DNA of 45,876 nucleotides, taken from positions 1 through 45,876 of the IMG/VR virus record IMGVR_UViG_3300034198_023093, one strand, 5' to 3'. Both the position numbers and the translations under genes were made by a program. Below are positions 1-45,787 of this stretch, piece by piece. The stretch is from a virus. Positions within the stretch are counted from its first letter, which is position 1; every line of letters begins with the position of its first letter. The notes beneath the pieces were generated by a model that worked only from the letters and a program-made list of their open reading frames with translations, was not told where the DNA came from and made no database searches.

Positions 1-27
1 AGCACGTAAAGCACGTAAAGCACGTAT
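1..27 (+). repeat. Three tandem copies of a 9-bp unit
   Basis: The unit AGCACGTAA occurs three times in a row, the last copy ending in T. It encodes the Ala-Arg-Lys repeat at the end of the partial upstream gene, so it is most simply a coding microrepeat. Confidence 0.6.
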
Positions 28-3149: not shown

Positions 3150-3629
3150 ATGCAACTTGACACCTTCCTCCAGTCGAAAGTTCGCTGGCATTTGGGATAC
3201 AACGTCACATCTATCCCTGCTGGCGACCAAGCCCGACTGGAAGAGGCCGTGAACAACATTCCTGATTCGTTTTGGTATAGCAAGATTTCTGAGCAGGTCA
3301 CTCGGTGCGACTATGCAGAAAAGCAGACCGACATGACCGGTTCAGTTAACAATTTCAACGTTCCTAAAAATCGTCTTGAAAACATCGCGGGAGATGTTTC
3401 ACGTACGATCTCAACTTCAGACTTTAAGGAGACTTTGAAAACTTGGTCACAAATCTATCTATACGAGACGGATCGATTAGCTCTCCATCTCTATGTTCCC
3501 AATTACCGAAACCCAGAACAGGCAAGGTACCGATTTAACCGAGAAGGCGCTGAGTTCATTCAAGCGCTCCCGGGTCCCGCTGACGTTGCTGTTGGCACTC
3601 GCATTCTGTTCGAAACCAGCTTCCGCTGA
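3150..3629 (+). CDS. Tail or connector protein with GTR-LFE C-terminal motif
   Basis: 159 aa, predicted soluble and mixed alpha/beta. No named family is recognised. Its last 13 residues (VGTRILFETSFR after DVA) are almost repeated at the end of the 8463-8930 protein (VGTRLLFEANYR), which suggests a common docking peptide for a virion partner. The stop lies 22 bases before the likely start of the GH104 gene. Confidence 0.6.
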   Translation: MQLDTFLQSKVRWHLGYNVTSIPAGDQARLEEAVNNIPDSFWYSKISEQVTRCDYAEKQTDMTGSVNNFNVPKNRLENIAGDVSRTISTSDFKETLKTWSQIYLYETDRLALHLYVPNYRNPEQARYRFNREGAEFIQALPGPADVAVGTRILFETSFR

Positions 3630-3651
3630 GATTATTGAAGGAATTCCAGTC

Positions 3652-4368
3652 ATGCCTGAAGACTACTCTTTCTATGCACAGCAAGTTCAAAAGCCTTCAG
3701 TACGTAGGCTCCTGAACACAATCCGATACGCAGAAGGTACTGCAGGTCCGGAAGGATACCGAACAAAATATGGTGGCGGTCTGTTTAGCGATTTCAATAG
3801 GCATCCTGACCAAGCTGTTAGCAGTGGCAGACACACCAGCACTGCAGCAGGCGCCTACCAGTTTCTAACTCCTACTTGGCAATCAGTATCTTCTAAGCTC
3901 GGCTTGAAAAAATTCGGTCCTCAAGAACAAGATATCGCTGCTGCTTATCTTGCGGATCAACGTTTAAAATCTTTAGGCGGACTTGCTGCCCTAGATAAAC
4001 AAGGAATGTCTTCACAAGTTGCGTCTGCACTTGCACCTGAATGGGCATCGTTTCCGACTATGAGAGGAGGCAGCTACTACGGTCAACCATCAAAAAATAT
4101 CAAAGAACTGCAAACTCAATATGGAATTACCCCCGGACCTACTACAACAGCGTCTACTAATCAACAGACTCGCACAGGCAATACTTACAATTTTTACGTT
4201 AACGGTGATGCAGACCCAGACACAAAAAACTTTTTGACTCGTTTCTTGTCTGAACACGGATTGCCTGATTTAGCAAATAGTTCTAAATCAGGAATTCCTT
4301 CGTTTGATCCTAATAATATGGTTAAGAATCTACAGAAAGCAATGTACTCTGAAACTGTGTACCAATGA
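3652..4368 (+). CDS. GH104 (lambda R-like) muralytic transglycosylase
   Basis: 238 aa from the ATG at 3652, which has GAAGGA about ten bases upstream. The N-terminal half matches the lambda R / GH104 pattern: IRYAEGTAGPEGY with the catalytic Glu, GGGLFSDFNRHPD, TAAGAYQFLTPTWQ, FGPQEQDIAAAYL. These enzymes cut peptidoglycan glycan strands, leaving anhydro ends. The C-terminal part (from NTYNFYVNGDADPD) is not catalytic and is shared with the next gene. The frame stays open upstream to 3493 and reads there like a signal peptide, but that stretch overlaps the preceding gene. A virion-borne entry enzyme is more likely than a lysis endolysin, given its place among structural genes. Confidence 0.75.
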   Translation: MPEDYSFYAQQVQKPSVRRLLNTIRYAEGTAGPEGYRTKYGGGLFSDFNRHPDQAVSSGRHTSTAAGAYQFLTPTWQSVSSKLGLKKFGPQEQDIAAAYLADQRLKSLGGLAALDKQGMSSQVASALAPEWASFPTMRGGSYYGQPSKNIKELQTQYGITPGPTTTASTNQQTRTGNTYNFYVNGDADPDTKNFLTRFLSEHGLPDLANSSKSGIPSFDPNNMVKNLQKAMYSETVYQ

Positions 4369-6171: not shown

Positions 6172-8466
6172 GTGGCTTTCGGTAAAAACAGTTTCGCCGG
6201 AAATAATAGCGGTTTTAATGGAAAACTGTCTAAAGGATTTGATAGCCCAATAGACAACACTAAGATCAATTTTGATCAATTAGATACGCCTTTTACATTC
6301 ACGCCTAACGATTCACGTTTTAAGAGCAGGATTAAGTTCTACGACCGCGATTCATTGTGGGCACGGTGGAGACGCGGCTACGAGCTATACACAATTACTC
6401 AAAGTTTGTACGGATCGGGAGCTGCAAAGCGTTCCACAATCGGCGACTACAGGTTTAATTGTGCGTTTCAACACAAAAGCGGAATTTTTACAACAGCAAG
6501 AGTTTTTACTTTTCCCAGCAACACTTCAGAAAATGGAGAACAACTGGTTGCAGTAAGAGATGCGAATGTCTTCAATTTTTACGATTTTGGCTTACCAATA
6601 CTATCTACGGTTTATTTAGGGGCTGCATCAACAGCTGCTTACAGCCAATCCGGCACCGATATTGTAGTTTTATATCCAAACCATAATCTGCAACCCAGCG
6701 AACAAGTCCGGCTTACGTTTTTGAGTGGCTCTGCAGTAACAGCTACCTTACCTATAGTCAGCAGGACAACAGATTCTTTTACATGTACAGCAGCAACACC
6801 ACTGACTACTGTTGGGAATGTCTCTGTAGCTTTGTCAACAAGTTTTGAAGATGTTCGTTGGACAGAAACTAGAGTTAAAATTCGAAAACTTCCTGCGTTT
6901 ATTGATACAGTTGTTGGAGAAAGATTCACAGATCGTATAACTGAAACGGATCCTGGTGTTCTTGTAACTTACGCACAGTCTGGTTATTCAGTGAGTGTCA
7001 CGTGTGCCACAGAGCATGGTCTAGTAACTGGCAAAAAAATAAATTTCAGCACAACTACTGGGGATGCAGTAGCAGGTTTATTTTTAGTGCGCGTAACTTC
7101 TCCGACAACATTTGACATAACATCTTCTATTGAGCTTACAACTACAGGCACAGGGCTTGTTTATAGGTTGATTAAAAAGTATGATTATTCCGACTACGTT
7201 GGTTATACCGTAAAAAGTATTGATAGAGGAACAAACGAGATTGTTTTCCAGAGGCAAGATAGTTATGGGGCAGTAACTGATGATAATCAAAAAGTCAGCA
7301 TCACTGTACCAGCTCAACGAGGGTTTGCTTTAAGTCGATTTTTAACATCTGAGATTCGTTATCAGTGCGCTTGTCAAGACTTCACTAGAAGGCAAACATA
7401 TAACTTGTATGACGAGAAAACGTCGTCTCGTTTTCCTAAGACACCAATCACATCGGTTAAACCTGGATCTATTTTATACAAAGATGATTCAGTAGCAGAC
7501 AGGCGGGACAATGATGGTATTTTCAGCGACTTTGGTTATATTTCTACTAGCAATTTCAACACGCTTTCTACTTACAGAGATCAAAAAGAAACGTGTTACA
7601 CGGAATTAATGTATTACCAGATGCGGTGGTGTAAGCACATTTACGCGGCTCTTTTTTCTTTGGTTCATGATGAAGGGAACCAAAAAATAGATATTTTTGG
7701 AACTTACACACAAACTGGCGATACAACTGTAACCATAACAAGCGTTGACCATGGGTTAAATTCCGGGATTAAAATTGCAGTTGAGTTTGAGGATAATACG
7801 GCATTAAGCGGATACTACACAGTAAACAGTGTCATTGGTAAAGATACGTTTACTATGGTTTATCCTTATGTGCAGACTGTTTCGGGTAGATGTATTGTCA
7901 ACAATATAAAAATTCATGAGTACATTAAAGATTGGTTATTAGAGCCATCTGATCATCCTGTTGGAGATAAGTCAGACGCTTTTTATGATAACTTTGAAAA
8001 ACAAAGTTCCGCATTGAAGCAATCTCTTGAAAAGAGCGTGATGTTAAAAATGGGAAAACCTTGGATAGGTTCTCTTGTCACTTTGAATGATAACAGCCTA
8101 CCCCAACAAACACCAAACTACGATGAATCACTTATTTCTTCCATATTGACTGATCACGTGCTTCGCGACGAAGCAGGTAATTTAAGCCCTACAGGCACAC
8201 AGGTCAATTATACCGAAACCATGATTGCCATTGTAAGTAAAGTATTGAATCTGTCACCTTCTTATATTGAATCTGGAATGTTTGGATATATTAATCAGCC
8301 TGCAATTAATTTTCCTCCTAACTATCAAGCAAAAACTATATCTGCTGGATCTTATAGTGCAACAACTCCCACTGTCTTTTCTGAAATCATCGATTGTTCG
8401 ACGTATAGTCCCTACGTTCTGCAAGATGTTATTATTGATTGCGGGCAGTACACAGTTGCACCATGA
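6172..8466 (+). CDS. Large tail protein with three beta repeats and a SWIM-like Cys/His pattern
   Basis: 764 aa from GTG at 6172. Copies of the Y-x-Q-x-G ... H-G/N-L ... T-T-x-G repeat begin near residues 156, 266 and 510. Between the second and third is CAC at 399-401 and CKH at 487-489, the CxC...CxH ligand set of a SWIM zinc finger, but with an unusually long spacer of 85 residues. I recall annotations of this kind in cyanophage structural proteins. Residues after about 600 are mostly helical. AT content is higher than in the capsid gene. A tail-hub or baseplate role is likely. Confidence 0.65.
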   Translation: MAFGKNSFAGNNSGFNGKLSKGFDSPIDNTKINFDQLDTPFTFTPNDSRFKSRIKFYDRDSLWARWRRGYELYTITQSLYGSGAAKRSTIGDYRFNCAFQHKSGIFTTARVFTFPSNTSENGEQLVAVRDANVFNFYDFGLPILSTVYLGAASTAAYSQSGTDIVVLYPNHNLQPSEQVRLTFLSGSAVTATLPIVSRTTDSFTCTAATPLTTVGNVSVALSTSFEDVRWTETRVKIRKLPAFIDTVVGERFTDRITETDPGVLVTYAQSGYSVSVTCATEHGLVTGKKINFSTTTGDAVAGLFLVRVTSPTTFDITSSIELTTTGTGLVYRLIKKYDYSDYVGYTVKSIDRGTNEIVFQRQDSYGAVTDDNQKVSITVPAQRGFALSRFLTSEIRYQCACQDFTRRQTYNLYDEKTSSRFPKTPITSVKPGSILYKDDSVADRRDNDGIFSDFGYISTSNFNTLSTYRDQKETCYTELMYYQMRWCKHIYAALFSLVHDEGNQKIDIFGTYTQTGDTTVTITSVDHGLNSGIKIAVEFEDNTALSGYYTVNSVIGKDTFTMVYPYVQTVSGRCIVNNIKIHEYIKDWLLEPSDHPVGDKSDAFYDNFEKQSSALKQSLEKSVMLKMGKPWIGSLVTLNDNSLPQQTPNYDESLISSILTDHVLRDEAGNLSPTGTQVNYTETMIAIVSKVLNLSPSYIESGMFGYINQPAINFPPNYQAKTISAGSYSATTPTVFSEIIDCSTYSPYVLQDVIIDCGQYTVAP

Positions 8467-10964: not shown

Positions 10965-11156
10965 ATGAATACTATTGATGAATTAGAGTCCGATTTGCTT
11001 CAAAAATTAAACACCCTCGAAGTAGAGATTCGCTCTACAGAGAACAAACTTCTCTCATTGAAAGAGGTTTACCTGAAGACTTCGGGGGGTTTGGATGCCA
11101 TTACCTTCGTCAAAAGTCTTCCAGCTTTTAAGGATGAAGCCGCGACTCGGATTTGA
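10965..11156 (+). CDS. Small coiled-coil protein
   Basis: 63 aa, Leu/Glu/Lys-rich heptads (LESDLLQKLNTLEVEIR) predict a coiled coil. The last 19 bases lie antisense to the tRNA-Thr gene. Small coiled-coil proteins often follow lysis genes in phages. No family is recognised. Confidence 0.5.
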   Translation: MNTIDELESDLLQKLNTLEVEIRSTENKLLSLKEVYLKTSGGLDAITFVKSLPAFKDEAATRI

Positions 11157-11212
11157 ACCGAGGATAACCTGATTACAAATCAGGTGCAGTAGGCCAGCTG
11201 TGCTATCGCGGC
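11138..11212 (-). tRNA. tRNA-Thr (anticodon UGU)
   Basis: Reverse complement folds as a normal cloverleaf. The acceptor stem GCCGCGA pairs with TCGCGGC, the anticodon stem CCTGA pairs with TCAGG, and the loop TTTGTAA gives anticodon TGT with T33 in place. The T arm is CTCGG-TTCAAAT-CCGAG. No CCA is encoded. It reads ACA and lies five bases from a second tRNA, forming a pair against the direction of the surrounding genes. Confidence 0.92.
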
Positions 11213-11217
11213 AGTGG

Positions 11218-11300
11218 TAGGAGCGACGGGGGTCGAACCCGTACAATCACAGATTATCGGAGCTTAAATCCGATGCGTCTACCAATTTCGCCACGCTCCT
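11218..11300 (-). tRNA. tRNA-Leu (anticodon UAA)
   Basis: Reverse complement gives acceptor stem AGGAGCG/CGCTCCT, D arm with GGTAGACGC, anticodon stem TCGGA/TCCGA with loop TTTAAGC (anticodon TAA), a long class II variable arm, and T arm ACGGG-TTCGACC-CCCGT. The long variable arm fits leucine. No CCA is encoded. It reads UUA, a codon favoured in the AT-richer tail genes. Confidence 0.92.
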
Positions 11301-24068: not shown

Positions 24069-24416
24069 CTAACATGGTTTCAGTTGAAGCTGTTCTGTGA
24101 TTAAGCCGGTGTAAAGACCGTTCGTGCGTCCGCTTTCTTGATACAGCTTTTCGAGCGTATCTTGCCTTTCCGGATAGTAGCCCTCTCCTTCAACAGTATC
24201 AATCACCTCAAAGCTGAGTCGCTTTTCAAGGCACCTAAGCTCTAACTGTGCTTCTTCCTTTGAAGCAAACCAACCCGTCCAGTGGTGCTCGTGTCCGATA
24301 ACAACGTGACCTGCAAACAGTTTGGTGTCTTCGTTCCAACAGCTGGGCAAGATTTCACTACGTTTGTACGAAGCTTTTTTCGGCGTCTGTTCTTGCTTGG
24401 TCAAAGATGTTTCCAT
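24069..24416 (-). CDS. Unknown small protein
   Basis: 115 aa, with FAGHVVIGHEHHWTGWFASKEEAQLELR. The His/Trp-rich strand is striking, but no family is recognised. It overlaps the upstream HNH-like gene by 59 bases. Confidence 0.55.
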   Translation of the reverse strand: METSLTKQEQTPKKASYKRSEILPSCWNEDTKLFAGHVVIGHEHHWTGWFASKEEAQLELRCLEKRLSFEVIDTVEGEGYYPERQDTLEKLYQESGRTNGLYTGLITEQLQLKPC

Positions 24417-24969
24417 AGCTGAGGTTTACGGTAACAAGTTTTTTCGGAGTAGGAAGCGCTTCCATTTCTCTAAGTCGGAGATGAAGAGGATTGCAACACA
24501 AAGAGTCGCAACCATTCCTGTGGAACACCCGCATCTTCCCGGAGTATCCCCGAGAAGTCCAGAACGCTACCCTGGCCGCCGATTGAATTTTACCACTGTG
24601 AAACGGGCTGGGCATGTACGCCGCCGTTTCTGCTCCGTTCTTTCTTGTGGCGCCAACCCAAGGCCAACAGTCATCTGGATCTCCAATAATCACCTTATCC
24701 CAAAAGCTCTTAATCGGCCAGTGTTCGCTGAACTCAAAATTACGAACATCGACTGAACAGTAACCAGACTCCACCTGCTTCATGCAATCAAGGCACTCGC
24801 CCATCAGACCAAACCTACCTACATGTCCGACACCGTTTCGTTTGTGCCACAAGCATCGGACTTTACTTTTGCTGCTAGATAAAACAGTCGTCTTTTCAGG
24901 CGAATTTTTTACGTCATTACGTAGTAATTCGGCATTTCTGACGAGGGTCTGAGAAAAATCTTCAGTCAT
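24358..24969 (-). CDS. HNH-like endonuclease
   Basis: 203 aa from ATG 24969, overlapping the previous gene's stop by eight bases. DDCWPWVGATRKNGAE begins a CWPW-type HNH, then ARVAFWTSRGYSGKMRVFHRN and CDSLCCNPLHLRLRE complete it (H and NP-x-H positions). Usual role is homing or defence-type DNA cleavage. A Cys motif CLDC appears earlier. Confidence 0.7.
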   Translation of the reverse strand: MTEDFSQTLVRNAELLRNDVKNSPEKTTVLSSSKSKVRCLWHKRNGVGHVGRFGLMGECLDCMKQVESGYCSVDVRNFEFSEHWPIKSFWDKVIIGDPDDCWPWVGATRKNGAETAAYMPSPFHSGKIQSAARVAFWTSRGYSGKMRVFHRNGCDSLCCNPLHLRLREMEALPTPKKLVTVNLSYGNIFDQARTDAEKSFVQT

Positions 24970-25453
24970 AGACCTCGTGGATACAGATGCGCCGTACCAC
25001 ATGGTAGGGGAGTCCGTTCTGTTTGGCAAGGTGAGCAAACGTCCTACCCTCCTTGTGGCAGCCCCGCAATTTCGTGATCAACTCCTCCGTCACTGCACTG
25101 CCCCGCCGCTTCCCTCTCTCAAGGCACACGTCTTTTTTCGTACCAAAAAAGTAGTGGCCAGGGTTTAGGCAGTATACGGAGTTGCAACAATGTTTCCGCA
25201 CCACCAACGCGTCAGGATTCTCCTGGTACATATCTACTAGTGCCAGTAGTAGAAGCCTGGCGTCTTTACCTTTGTACAAAGGCTTGCCTCCATGGCTGGT
25301 TGTAAAGCCCTTCAACCTTCTGGTGTTGTTCGTTTTCAGGCACCAGCATTGGGTTTTTCCGAGTTCCTGGTGAAATACCGTCAGAGTCTCTACAAAAAAT
25401 AAAGCGTCCTTGCGTGTCAACCCATAAGTCTTGAAAAATTCAAGAAACTTCAT
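24962..25453 (-). CDS. HNH-like zinc/HTH protein
   Basis: 163 aa from ATG 25453; the longer frame to 25531 runs into the palindrome and is less likely. RKHCCNSVYCLNPGHYFFGTK is an HNH-related zinc site (CC, C-x-NP-x-H). AKQNGLPYHVVRRICIHEVYD near the end is helix-turn-helix-like. Could be a homing endonuclease or regulator. It is the first gene of a leftward operon whose leader contains the palindrome. Confidence 0.65.
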   Translation of the reverse strand: MKFLEFFKTYGLTRKDALFFVETLTVFHQELGKTQCWCLKTNNTRRLKGFTTSHGGKPLYKGKDARLLLLALVDMYQENPDALVVRKHCCNSVYCLNPGHYFFGTKKDVCLERGKRRGSAVTEELITKLRGCHKEGRTFAHLAKQNGLPYHVVRRICIHEVYD

Positions 25454-25530
25454 AGTAGGGGGAAGTTGCGTACTCTTGAAAGAGTACAGCAGAGCCCTTC
25501 CTGTGTCAAGGGTTTGCAGGCAGGGGACCA

Positions 25531-25741
25531 TAACGTGTTAGGAACTCCGCTTTTTAAGGGTATTTCACTTGGTATAGAAGCAATTTGTGGTTATCAACTG
25601 TATGTAACATTCATACGTAACATCAGTATGCAACTTTTGTTACGTACAGGTGTTACGTACCGTTGTTGCGTACACTTGAGAACCACAAACTACTTCCATG
25701 TGAGTGAGATTCCACTAAAAACCGGAGTTCCTCGTACGTTA
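25531..25741. repeat. Long imperfect palindrome with six TACGTAAC-type repeats
   Basis: Arms of about 104 bases (25531-25634 and 25639-25741) are inverted copies, about 72% identical by hand count over a TTTT loop at 25635-25638. Each arm holds three 8-mers of TAYGYAAC type, in opposite orientation in the other arm. Direct copies of AAGGGTTTGC flank it at 25508-25517 and 25763-25772. It lies between leftward genes, so it is in the leader of one and after the other. It could be a replication origin, a regulator binding array, or a foldback mobile element. Confidence 0.75.
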
Positions 25742-25807
25742 AGCGAAACTCCTGTCGTACCAAAGGGTTTGCTGTAGTACAGATCTACCCCCTACCTGCT
25801 TTTATAC

Positions 25808-25993
25808 CTAATTTTTAAAATCTTTTACTGAACATGCCTCATATTGTTTCGCATAGGTTAGTGCGCAGTGGTAAGGTTCCACGTACTTACACATTAAACC
25901 TAAGGAATTACAAACCCTGTGTACCTGGTTACCATGCAAGTCCTCTCCGAACTCAATTGTTGCTCCGTTGGAAAGCATCTCAAGTAATCTCAT
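25808..25993 (-). CDS. Small unknown protein
   Basis: 61 aa, starting MRLLEMLSNGATIEFGED and ending CSVKDFKN. Reads as a compact coding frame and fills the space beside the palindrome. Ends 66 bases from the palindrome. No domain. Confidence 0.5.
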   Translation of the reverse strand: MRLLEMLSNGATIEFGEDLHGNQVHRVCNSLGLMCKYVEPYHCALTYAKQYEACSVKDFKN

Positions 25994-26053
25994 GTCGCTG
26001 TTTGAAGACCTGTACTATCATTGTAGTAGTGAGTTTTACAGACGAGGATTGTT

Positions 26054-27724: not shown

Positions 27725-28008
27725 GACCCAGCCTTTTCAGAGATCACCACATCAAAATCAGGAGCAGCTGAGCACACAAAGACGAACGCTTTTGCAACAA
27801 ACATGTCGTTGACGGTCCTAATCACAAACGTCAGCGGCCAAGCCTCTTCCCATCCAGCACGACCATAGTAATAAAGCTTTGCAGCTTCTTCTGCAATGTC
27901 GTAGATATCTTTTCTTTTCGGATAGAGTACAGTAAAAACCTCCCAATCAGAGCCTGTTTCTTCAACTTTGTACTTGTACTGCACGGCATCCTTTATGTCC
28001 ATAGTCAT
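27718..28008 (-). CDS. Unknown protein downstream of the primase
   Basis: 96 aa, four-base overlap with the primase-helicase stop, so probably made from the same message. Mixed alpha/beta with YYYGRAGWEEAWPLTFVIRT. No motif recognised. Confidence 0.55.
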   Translation of the reverse strand: MTMDIKDAVQYKYKVEETGSDWEVFTVLYPKRKDIYDIAEEAAKLYYYGRAGWEEAWPLTFVIRTVNDMFVAKAFVFVCSAAPDFDVVISEKAGSY

Positions 28009-30638
28009 GATTCTGAACTCACTCCTTCAGCCAGAATCGTCGGATGACCTTTGAACTTACTGTCAGAAACTCGCACAGCAATTCCCTTGAAAAAAGGCTT
28101 CCCGTACTTACTAAAAGTAGATACACCAGACAAGCCCAGCTGATTCCGGCAGCAGTCCAATAGCAAGTTCACAAATCGCTTCTGTCCAACAGGCTTGGAC
28201 CCTGTATCTTCAGCGAACGCACAGTAACTCGGGTAAAGGTGCGAGCTGCTGTTGCAATATCTCTCAGACGGACCGCTCTGATCCCGTGGGGCTGGGATCT
28301 TCTTGCCAACCGCCGAAACGTGCTTCTCCTCATAAACGCACTCAGATTGAAGCCACTCAATCAGGTTATTGCTGTTAATCAGGATGCTGTTCCTGACTTT
28401 TTGCAAAGAAGGAACCAACTCCTGTGTGTCAAGCAAGTAACAGCGCATCTGCTCATCCGTCATTTGCAATACCCAGTTAACTAAGCCAGGTAAATAGTTC
28501 TTCCAGAATCCACTAACCCGTCCGCCTTCGATCTTAATCATGTCTTTTGCTTCACTACTCTTGTTATATAAGGGCCTATTGAACTCAATTGTTAATCGTC
28601 TACGGCTGAGTCCAGAGGTGTTATCAGTGGTCTGAATCGGTTCATTAGCCACAACAATAATCATTCCGGTATATACGAACGGCTCCCCGACACTTTTCTG
28701 CTTCTCTTCATAGCGAAGAGAATCACCCCCTGTCAACGCTTTGAAGGTTTGAACAGATCCTCCATACCTCTCGGAATCGTTGATCAAGGTCAGCCGTTTT
28801 CCCTTGACAGACGACAACTCAAACCGACTTTGCTCCAGCTGATTCAGTGTCGTGCTGGCAAAATTCCCGTTGCCGACGAGAGCACAGCAAAGATTGGCAA
28901 AAGTGGACTTACCTCGGCCACCTGGACCAATAATCTCCAGGAATCGTTGAATCTCGTTCCCCCTACCAACCAGACAAGCCCTCAACCAAGCTCTCAATAC
29001 CTGAACACGTGCGTCATCGTTGTACTGTGTCCTATACAACCACTCAGCAATAGGACCCGGTTCTAGAGTGGGATCATACTTAAAATCAAGCCCCCAAGTA
29101 ATGTAGTTGTCGGGACAATGCTCAACAAATTCACCTGTATCAAGCTCCAAAACACCATTCAAAAATGCCAAGCGCGTCGTATCGTGCGTCCAGTCATCTT
29201 GCTGGAGATTACCCTCTAGCAGGCTGCAGACGTCATCTACAAGGTTGGCAGTGTAGCCATTAGGAAGGTCAATCTTCTCAAGATAAAACTGAACGTTGTG
29301 CTTAAAGTCTTTGGCGTGCGCCTGCCTGCTCCACACACCACGCTCGCCGTCGTAGTGCATGAAGACATCAAACTTCGCGTCATACCGCCAACCATGAGAC
29401 AACAGCTTCGGAACCAACCCATTTGCAATAACTGAAGCGGGTGGGTTCCTTGGCCTGCCTTTCTTATCCGACACTTTTGACGCAGGGTTGTCGCCATCAT
29501 CGTCATCATCATCTCCTGAAACAAAACCAAAGAAATCAGGCGGAACAACACCTTGTTGAATCAGGTCTTCAAGCAAAAACACTTGATTGTCGCCGTCTCC
29601 TCCCCGCTCCATCTCAAACGCCATCTGGCGATTGATCGTCTCAATAGTTGGAACCTCAAATCCAGCGATCGAAACATAACCGTCTTCCTTAGCTTTAGCC
29701 CTGAGTGTTTTCAGCCCACGGGCACCTTCCGGTGAGTGACCACCTGGCAAACGCTCGAAACTAGACCACTTCTCTTCGCAACAACCATCCTCAAAAGAGT
29801 CAGAAATAGAAGACCAGCTGATCCAATCTGCGAGCAAATCTTCATCGATTTGATGGAGGGCCATGCCTACAGCAATCCATTCCTCGTAATCGTCAGCCCT
29901 GGAAGGACTTAGAGCTGACAAATACTCTTGAGCTTCCTCAATGATCTGCTGTTTTTGATGCTCACTACCTTCTTCATATTCGAGGTTGATAGTCTGCATC
30001 AGCGCAGCACCATTCTCAAAACTGGAATGTTTTTTGTACCGACTTGAAGGGTACTTTTCTACGATCAGCTTGTAAAGCCATTCTGGCATTTCAGGCAGTT
30101 TCTTGCACCACTCAAATCCACCATGAGCCGTGGTCCTATATCCGTCAGTTTCAGGGTGTGCGCCCATGATTGCGCCCTGACGACTGCGCCACAGGATTTC
30201 CCAAGGATTATCATCTAACTTCAGGGTTGCTTTGTCCGGAAGTGAATGAACTTTGTGAGGAGGAACCCTGAACACCATCCGGAACCTTCCCGGTTTCCCG
30301 CTGCTGATGGTCAGTGTCGGGGGGAAGATCGCGTCAATGGGACCACCGCCAGCAGCTTCAATAGCTGGGATGGCTGCCTCCCCATCAATATCTACCATTA
30401 TGAGAGCAAGCTCATTGCTCCACTGGCCGCACAACAGGCCTACACCAGTCGCTCTGCCTTCTTCCAACTCCTTCTTAATCTCTGCCACCGTTTTTGGGTC
30501 AGACGTCCACCCTGGCAGATAGGCACGCTTGCCGCGTAAGGGGGTTAGGGGAAAGTCAACGGGCACATAGTCCAGGTTGATCTGCCCTGGAGCTGTATGC
30601 TTGTTAGGAGGGGTCGGTTCGGAGGCGGCTGTTGTCAC
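28005..30638 (-). CDS. PrimPol/SF3 primase-helicase
   Basis: 877 aa, D5-like architecture. An N-terminal primase-polymerase domain has ALIMVDIDGE (D83, D85), a SSGKPGRFRM segment and a WRSRQGAIMGAHPETDGY end. A PriCT-like region occupies about 245-295. A disordered acidic stretch with six Asp lies near 376-381. The SF3 helicase follows: Walker A GPGGRGKST (571-579), then an Asp-containing LTLINDSER segment and MIIVVANEPIQTTDNTSG with SRRRLTIEFNR (arginine finger region). It makes primers and unwinds DNA at the fork. This type is common in large phages and plasmids. It pairs here with a T7-like polymerase rather than a T7-like gp4. Confidence 0.85.
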   Translation of the reverse strand: MTTAASEPTPPNKHTAPGQINLDYVPVDFPLTPLRGKRAYLPGWTSDPKTVAEIKKELEEGRATGVGLLCGQWSNELALIMVDIDGEAAIPAIEAAGGGPIDAIFPPTLTISSGKPGRFRMVFRVPPHKVHSLPDKATLKLDDNPWEILWRSRQGAIMGAHPETDGYRTTAHGGFEWCKKLPEMPEWLYKLIVEKYPSSRYKKHSSFENGAALMQTINLEYEEGSEHQKQQIIEEAQEYLSALSPSRADDYEEWIAVGMALHQIDEDLLADWISWSSISDSFEDGCCEEKWSSFERLPGGHSPEGARGLKTLRAKAKEDGYVSIAGFEVPTIETINRQMAFEMERGGDGDNQVFLLEDLIQQGVVPPDFFGFVSGDDDDDDGDNPASKVSDKKGRPRNPPASVIANGLVPKLLSHGWRYDAKFDVFMHYDGERGVWSRQAHAKDFKHNVQFYLEKIDLPNGYTANLVDDVCSLLEGNLQQDDWTHDTTRLAFLNGVLELDTGEFVEHCPDNYITWGLDFKYDPTLEPGPIAEWLYRTQYNDDARVQVLRAWLRACLVGRGNEIQRFLEIIGPGGRGKSTFANLCCALVGNGNFASTTLNQLEQSRFELSSVKGKRLTLINDSERYGGSVQTFKALTGGDSLRYEEKQKSVGEPFVYTGMIIVVANEPIQTTDNTSGLSRRRLTIEFNRPLYNKSSEAKDMIKIEGGRVSGFWKNYLPGLVNWVLQMTDEQMRCYLLDTQELVPSLQKVRNSILINSNNLIEWLQSECVYEEKHVSAVGKKIPAPRDQSGPSERYCNSSSHLYPSYCAFAEDTGSKPVGQKRFVNLLLDCCRNQLGLSGVSTFSKYGKPFFKGIAVRVSDSKFKGHPTILAEGVSSES

Positions 30639-45677: not shown

Positions 45678-45782
45678 TTGGTCGCCCAACTGGGAAAGCA
45701 GCCTTTGCTCCTGCGGGAAGACGACCAGGGGTTTGCTTGGCATTTCGCCATTATGGACATTCTTCAGAGCGAATGTCCATAA
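45678..45782 (+). CDS. Short open frame, possible gene remnant
   Basis: 34 aa from TTG 45678 (TTG 45651 also in frame). VAQLGKQPLLLREDDQGFAW, then HFAIMDILQSECP. It ends TAATG-coupled to the next frame. More GC-rich and unlike phage genes nearby. Doubtful alone, stronger as a pair. Confidence 0.35.
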   Translation: MVAQLGKQPLLLREDDQGFAWHFAIMDILQSECP

Positions 45783-45787
45783 TGGCG
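45746..45787. repeat. Perfect 17-bp inverted repeat
   Basis: CGCCATTATGGACATTC (45746-45762) and its exact reverse complement (45771-45787), separated by eight bases. The second arm contains the TAATG of the two short + frames. Could be an operator, terminator-like hairpin, or recombination site. No T run follows. Confidence 0.8.

Follow-up and report, generated by a model that had tools for sequence, protein, structure and literature searches.

Homing endonuclease genes of phage T4 are controlled by hairpins in their transcripts: RNA begun at an upstream promoter folds over the ribosome site, whereas RNA begun at a promoter within the hairpin leaves that site uncovered (PMC2988022). Translational-control hairpins of this type are found at I-TevI, I-TevII, I-TevIII, and segB, and at mobE of phage Aeh1, and I-TevI also represses its own promoter (PMC2988022). 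At seg43(25) of Aeromonas phage 25, an isolated case, a very stable hairpin lies just upstream of the endonuclease gene and leaves the ribosome site uncovered (PMC2988022).

The window examined here is the entire 45,876-nucleotide stretch of IMG/VR virus record IMGVR_UViG_3300034198_023093. It contains a far longer palindrome in front of a pair of HNH genes, and a hairpin is held at this one gene position across approximately 60 related cyanophages in spite of sequence change. We propose, tentatively, that the hairpin acts in cis as a structured element of the operon formed by HNH1 and HNH2, a reading favored because the arrangement matches that of the T4 endonuclease genes; its role is most likely to control when the HNH genes switch on.

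The hairpin and its neighboring genes

In the HNH direction, which is the minus strand of the window, the typical order is a gene of about 60 amino acids, the hairpin, a TTGACA-17-TAnnnT promoter, HNH1, and HNH2 (Table 1). The preliminary description had recognized a giant imperfect palindrome around a TTTT loop, and this is real: with the arms (window 25531-25741, about 200 bases) aligned using a symmetric Watson-Crick score, 79 of 101 aligned pairs (78%) are Watson-Crick, and complementarity within the arms is 75% in a 61 nt segment and 79% in a 39 nt segment. No other inverted repeat of the whole window comes close to it: it scores 115 versus 51 for the runner-up, a 42 nt repeat at 45746-45787 that is perhaps a terminator. 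Folded as RNA, the hairpin has a minimum free energy of −116 kcal/mol on the plus strand and −111 kcal/mol on the minus strand (z of −8.9 and −9.6, respectively), and none of 200 shuffles is as stable, shuffle numbers being small throughout this work (20-500). That the palindrome is an assembly join of two loci is very unlikely, as the same structure is present in dozens of independent contigs.

The six TAYGYAAC octamers described earlier are also present, three per arm, at positions 25601, 25614, 25627, 25639, 25652, and 25665; a seventh lies outside the hairpin at 25465, where transcripts of the adjacent promoter would start. The flanking direct repeats, AAGGGTTTGC at 25508-25517 and 25763-25772 and TCCTGT at 25499 and 25750, are likewise there, and the left copy of AAGGGTTTGC is the −35 region of the HNH promoter (CAAACCCTTGACA, minus strand).

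Table 1. Positions of the hairpin and associated features in the window.
Feature	Position	Strand	Basis
P1 5' strand, GTAGGGGG, the complement of CCCCCTAC, which lies at the HNH1 start	25788..25795	-	pairing test
P1 3' strand, CCCCCTAC, adjoining the HNH1 start codon	25455..25462	-	pairing test
Extra copy of the hairpin's TCAAGnGTACGCAAC segment, transcript start region	25465..25479	-	p 0.003 in the window
Hairpin 5' arm (HNH-sense direction)	25639..25741	-	inverted-repeat search, folding, arm alignment
Terminal loop TTTT (AAAA on minus strand)	25635..25638		sequence, arm alignment
Hairpin 3' arm	25531..25634	-	inverted-repeat search, folding, arm alignment
Apex, each arm contributing three of the six TAYGYAAC octamers	25601..25672		sequence; only in the window's part of the family
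3'-arm-only motif, consensus ACCCC-N7-TTCTATAAGAATTAATAGGGG	25558..25592	-	family motif scan; window copy weak, 5.3 bits
Conserved small ORF of 61 aa, immediately before the hairpin in the HNH-sense direction	25808..25993	-	62 IMG/VR loci; 14-row alignment
Promoter-like element upstream of the small ORF, consensus TCCTTTCTTACAATAGTAACACyG	26010..26033	-	conserved in family
HNH promoter −35 box TTGACA, ~20 nt beyond the 3' arm	25504..25509	-	family consensus
HNH promoter −10 box TACTCT, 17-nt spacer	25481..25486	-	family consensus
HNH1: HNH fold and C-terminal HTH	24962..25453	-	profile, alignment, model, tblastn
HNH2: HNH endonuclease family protein	24358..24969	-	phrog_1872, 3e-10; tblastn

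The genes beside the palindrome, previously called HNH-like, match profile phrog_1872 (HNH1 at 2e-4) and are about 29-43% identical to annotated phage HNH proteins by tblastn; the HNH1 start was set at the ATG at 25451-25453 and not in the longer open reading frame from 25531. The HNH1 model (pLDDT 89.5) has a C-terminal helix-turn-helix, and a fold search gives weak resemblances to HTH proteins (KorA/ArdK) and to I-PpoI/I-HmuI, with E about 1-4. The histidine that we take from motif knowledge to be catalytic is replaced in HNH1 of L038, L064-L066, L068, and L069, whereas the HTH, the Cys, and the NPxH residues are kept; this replacement hints that nuclease activity has been lost in some lineages, and because of it a role in DNA binding would be likelier than cutting there.

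The small protein, with the consensus MxVIQTFPNGTTIEFGEDxHGNQVHRVCxPxGSMCRYVEPYHCALTYAEQYE, was met solely in these cyanophage contigs. It has no match among Pfam and PDB sequences, and bacterial genome contigs searched with it or with the primase yielded no copies; its AF2 model (pLDDT 86) has a bbbb-alpha fold with no significant match in a structural search (best Pur-alpha, E 0.86). The primase-helicase itself, of PrimPol/D5 type, is encoded at 28005-30638 (minus) and is 36% identical to that of cyanophage S-EIVl over 98% of its length.

The promoter-like element upstream of the small ORF is the single outstanding match in most scanned genomes that have this ORF (in L040, 35 versus at most 12 bits); the exceptions are the window, where an intragenic site scores slightly higher, and L016, where another site equals it. 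The HNH promoter is sigma70-like and is no known late promoter. Consensus matches to TTGAC-17..19-TA, from which starts are predicted, are present in 53 of the 60 regions compared, behind or within the 3' arm—often about 20 nt beyond it, and inside a longer arm in some clades (L016 type).

Conservation of position and pairing among relatives

A search of cultured-phage DNA gave no match, and relatives were gathered instead by protein, using scans with the primase (49 contigs), the small protein (62), and HNH1 (18); removal of duplicates left 60 distinct regions, mostly from metagenome contigs. The first relative found, L002, whose HNH1 is 62% identical, has a 185-nt hairpin in the same place. 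In 57 of the 60 regions, each of 20 dinucleotide shuffles scores lower than the top inverted repeat found downstream of the small gene, counts that are not independent since the loci share ancestry; of the three remaining, L124 and L071 tie with their shuffles, and the hairpin of L100 (166 nt, score 42) has been pushed outside the scanned stretch by an inserted gene. In L100 a minus-strand ORF resembling AP2-type mobile endonucleases lies at the end of the small gene (about 3183-3830), with the hairpin kept beyond it. Hairpin size varies from about 50 to 290 nt, and HNH1 comes next in every region with sufficient sequence. The cultured cyanophage S-EIVl (KJ410740) has a 113-nt hairpin at 7843-7955; it lacks both the small gene and HNH1 but keeps the promoter and a gene resembling HNH2, and the hairpin therefore goes with the HNH operon.

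A scan of the window against Rfam 15 gave nothing above the gathering cut-off at the hairpin, where there are weak microRNA-precursor matches far under it, and found just two tRNAs; tRNA genes for Thr(TGT) and Leu(TAA) lie side by side at 11138-11300 (minus). Seven relatives were scanned similarly with no hairpin match and a single RNA, abiF, elsewhere (RF03085, 54.4 bits, at 2484-2520 of the related phage contig L006).

Side-by-side drawings of the hairpins reveal a shared plan: the outer stem leads through an imperfectly paired middle to an inner stem that pairs better, topped by an apex that varies. Clades do not share the sequence of this apex, and the TAYGYAAC octamers are confined to the window's part of the family. 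In A5, a 14-row alignment of the window's subfamily, 88% of cells pair as compared with 44-51% after sliding the partners, a measure on which the structure is favored by having been derived from A5 itself. Two-sided compensatory changes are seen in 21 of 44 pairs, there are 75 two-sided changed cells versus 29 in shuffles, and none of 500 shuffles reaches any of the five measures. The view that so long a structure must be functional is well supported by this strong covariation and by lineage-wide syntenic conservation.

The two arms are not equivalent. A motif with the consensus ACCCC-N7-TTCTATAAGAATTAATAGGGG sits at the inner-stem boundary, and all 45 scored matches in the 60 regions are in or just past the 3' arm with none in the 5' arm, using a model seeded with 3'-arm copies and a scan covering whole regions on one strand. 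This motif was considered as a late promoter and rejected; a similar element upstream of the small gene is without a second clear copy in most genomes scanned.

Mismatches and half-changes were compared between the strands. Over the whole hairpin, isolated G-T mismatches are about as frequent as isolated A-C ones (56:45 in 29 clusters below 80% identity), and the same holds for G-U and A-C half-changes between relatives (47:53); two-sided Watson-Crick changes (30 of 224) are well above the independent expectation of 2-4, which was estimated by hand. The pooled pattern is not what strong selection at the RNA level, acting on each pair, would leave. G-U exceeds A-C on the HNH-sense strand of the inner stem in 11 of 13 informative clusters (Wilcoxon p 0.012), and the outer stem has no bias (4 versus 6 clusters), using one value per 70% cluster and a split at the motif that was devised after the pooled counts and after A5, making this a lead and not a pre-planned test. 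The window copy itself has 5 G-T versus 4 A-C in the inner stem and 0 versus 5 in the outer stem, and the strand evidence thus comes from the relatives; a tRNA control included four tRNAs, too few to calibrate the comparison. RNA-level selection is weakly apparent, and for the inner stem only, because G-U and A-C are about equal over the whole hairpin and the outer stem is unbiased.

A further helix, P1, joins the sequence upstream of the hairpin to the HNH1 start, which it would cover in the window (p<0.005). A P1-type helix between these regions is significant in 19 of 52 relatives (including the window) and not in the other 33; the pairs are clade-specific, for example TGATAGGGG/CCCCTATCA in the L016 type and GATAGGGTTC/GAACCCTATC in the L017 type, and P1 is invariant in A5, without covariation. 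Universal start-codon masking by P1 was rejected, since it holds in part of the family only.

Explanations for the hairpin

Among the four possibilities raised in the preliminary description—an origin with iterons, an operator array, a structured leader RNA, and a foldback element—the best fit is an operator region or a structured RNA with a regulatory role, placed in front of the HNH operon. For the cis-element reading we infer that the hairpin is transcribed, that translation is controlled, and which strand acts. RNA started at the promoter of the small gene would cross the hairpin and fold, whereas the promoter just behind the 3' arm would give short transcripts that lack the fold and are open to translation. 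Read-through RNA of the window, and of part of the family, would in addition have its HNH1 start codon masked by the outermost helix, GTAGGGGG/CCCCCTAC. The outcome would be HNH expression uncoupled from upstream transcription, as in the T4 homing endonuclease genes. We count in its favor the same order in nearly all 60 regions, the S-EIVl locus, the covariation, the inner-stem G-U excess, the asymmetric motif, P1, and the T4 precedent; against it are the lack of a whole-hairpin G-U excess, the unbiased outer stem, the 33 of 52 relatives without a significant P1, the invariance of P1 in A5, and the sigma70-like promoter. A T4-style switch would not require a hairpin this large. It is conceivable, if doubtful, that the S-EIVl-like cyanophages possess a new lineage-wide class of giant structured RNA acting beyond start-codon masking, for example by binding the HNH-HTH proteins or the small protein through the asymmetric 3'-arm motif, as an RNA regulator and DNA operator with co-evolving sites.

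The main rival, which we judge somewhat unlikely, is a DNA-level element: the HNH-HTH proteins would bind the dyad as an operator with several sites or as an extruding cruciform (in autoregulation, possibly with nicking), and the RNA fold would be incidental. In its favor, the strand comparison shows no bias overall or in the outer stem. In 7 of 25 groups, segments of the hairpin reappear where the transcript starts (combined Fisher p 9e-6), the sequence differing by group—TCAAGnGTACGCAAC in the window, AATCTTACATATCCACTT in S-EIVl—and in two of the seven (L016 and L017) being the arms themselves. The C-terminal HTH in the HNH1 model, with its weak KorA/ArdK resemblance, also counts for this reading, the lineages lacking the catalytic histidine suit a DNA-binding role, and I-TevI provides the example of an autorepressor (PMC2988022). 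Against it are the inner-stem G-U excess, a motif in one arm only, and an apex whose sequence differs among clades.

We regard it as unlikely that the hairpin instead belongs to the 3' portion of the transcript of the small gene, or is an independent RNA that acts in trans or stabilizes that mRNA. It lies on the same strand and about 30-250 nt after the small gene in most relatives, and the stable fold and inner-stem bias are in keeping with such an RNA, but S-EIVl has the hairpin without the small gene, and no T-run that could act as a terminator follows the stem in the window sequence.

A replication origin, in which the nearby primase-helicase of PrimPol/SF3 type would initiate at the structured hairpin region, is quite improbable. 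In those relatives that were compared the hairpin lies downstream of the gene for the primase, its 3' arm has an AT-rich motif, and the octamers resemble iterons; these octamers are, however, clade-specific, the fixed neighbor is the HNH operon, and the GC-skew extrema are elsewhere in five long genomes (S-EIVl and four contigs of 78-83 kb), so that the earlier suggestion of an iteron origin is unsupported.

Still less probable is pairing without a selected function, in which replication template switching keeps the arms alike. Template switching is able to create and maintain hairpins (PMC8794818), and the two-sided Watson-Crick changes far above independent expectation, alongside equal A-C and G-U half-changes, speak for it. 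A neutral palindrome would be expected to decay or vanish somewhere, but the hairpin stays at one position in diverged lineages, with an asymmetric motif and an inner-stem G-U bias.

A foldback or MITE-like insertion with a target-site duplication, suggested by the terminal direct repeats in the window, is contradicted and has almost no probability, as the hairpin has the same place throughout the lineage with no empty site found among relatives, and the supposed duplication is the −35 region, is not generally kept, and is not of target-site origin because a promoter copy at the left flank exceeds chance in so few regions (13 of 53 direct and 13 of 53 inverted).

Comparison with known systems

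If the hairpin is indeed a cis-acting element of the HNH operon, then a widespread cyanophage lineage governs an HNH gene pair, some of whose members lack the catalytic histidine, by an unusually large conserved element. In this family one could test in nature whether selection or template switching preserves imperfect hairpins of such great length, and the family is a candidate new Rfam family; S-EIVl and its host Synechococcus sp. PCCC-A2c are a cultured pair suited to testing.

F plasmid Frpo and single-strand origins have a long imperfect hairpin with promoter sequences, a likeness limited to the clades in which the promoter falls inside the arms (L016 type); unlike Frpo, the hairpin has no company of conjugative or rolling-circle genes, to judge from the window proteins that were searched. 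It is a long imperfect hairpin of similar size to 6S RNA (RF00013), but the RF00013 covariance model does not match it, and it adjoins a protein operon with a promoter behind.

Closer likenesses are found among endonuclease genes. The hairpin shares with that of seg43(25) great stability, a position upstream of an endonuclease gene, and an uncovered ribosome site, and differs in being a lineage-wide family with covariation and in having a promoter in between. With the T4-type systems it shares a position upstream of endonuclease genes, a downstream gene of the HNH/GIY homing endonuclease type (phrog_1872), and a promoter whose transcript, from the predicted start, would be free of the inhibitory fold; operator copies are proposed at the promoter in T4-type systems, and candidates are likewise present here. 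T4-type endonuclease hairpins are much shorter, whereas the cyanophage hairpin is about 200 nt, about 80% paired, and has a core without the ribosome site; start-codon pairing is predicted in part of the family only, the promoter is sigma70-like, and the cyanophage HNH genes, unlike the mobile T4-type genes, look domesticated and syntenic.
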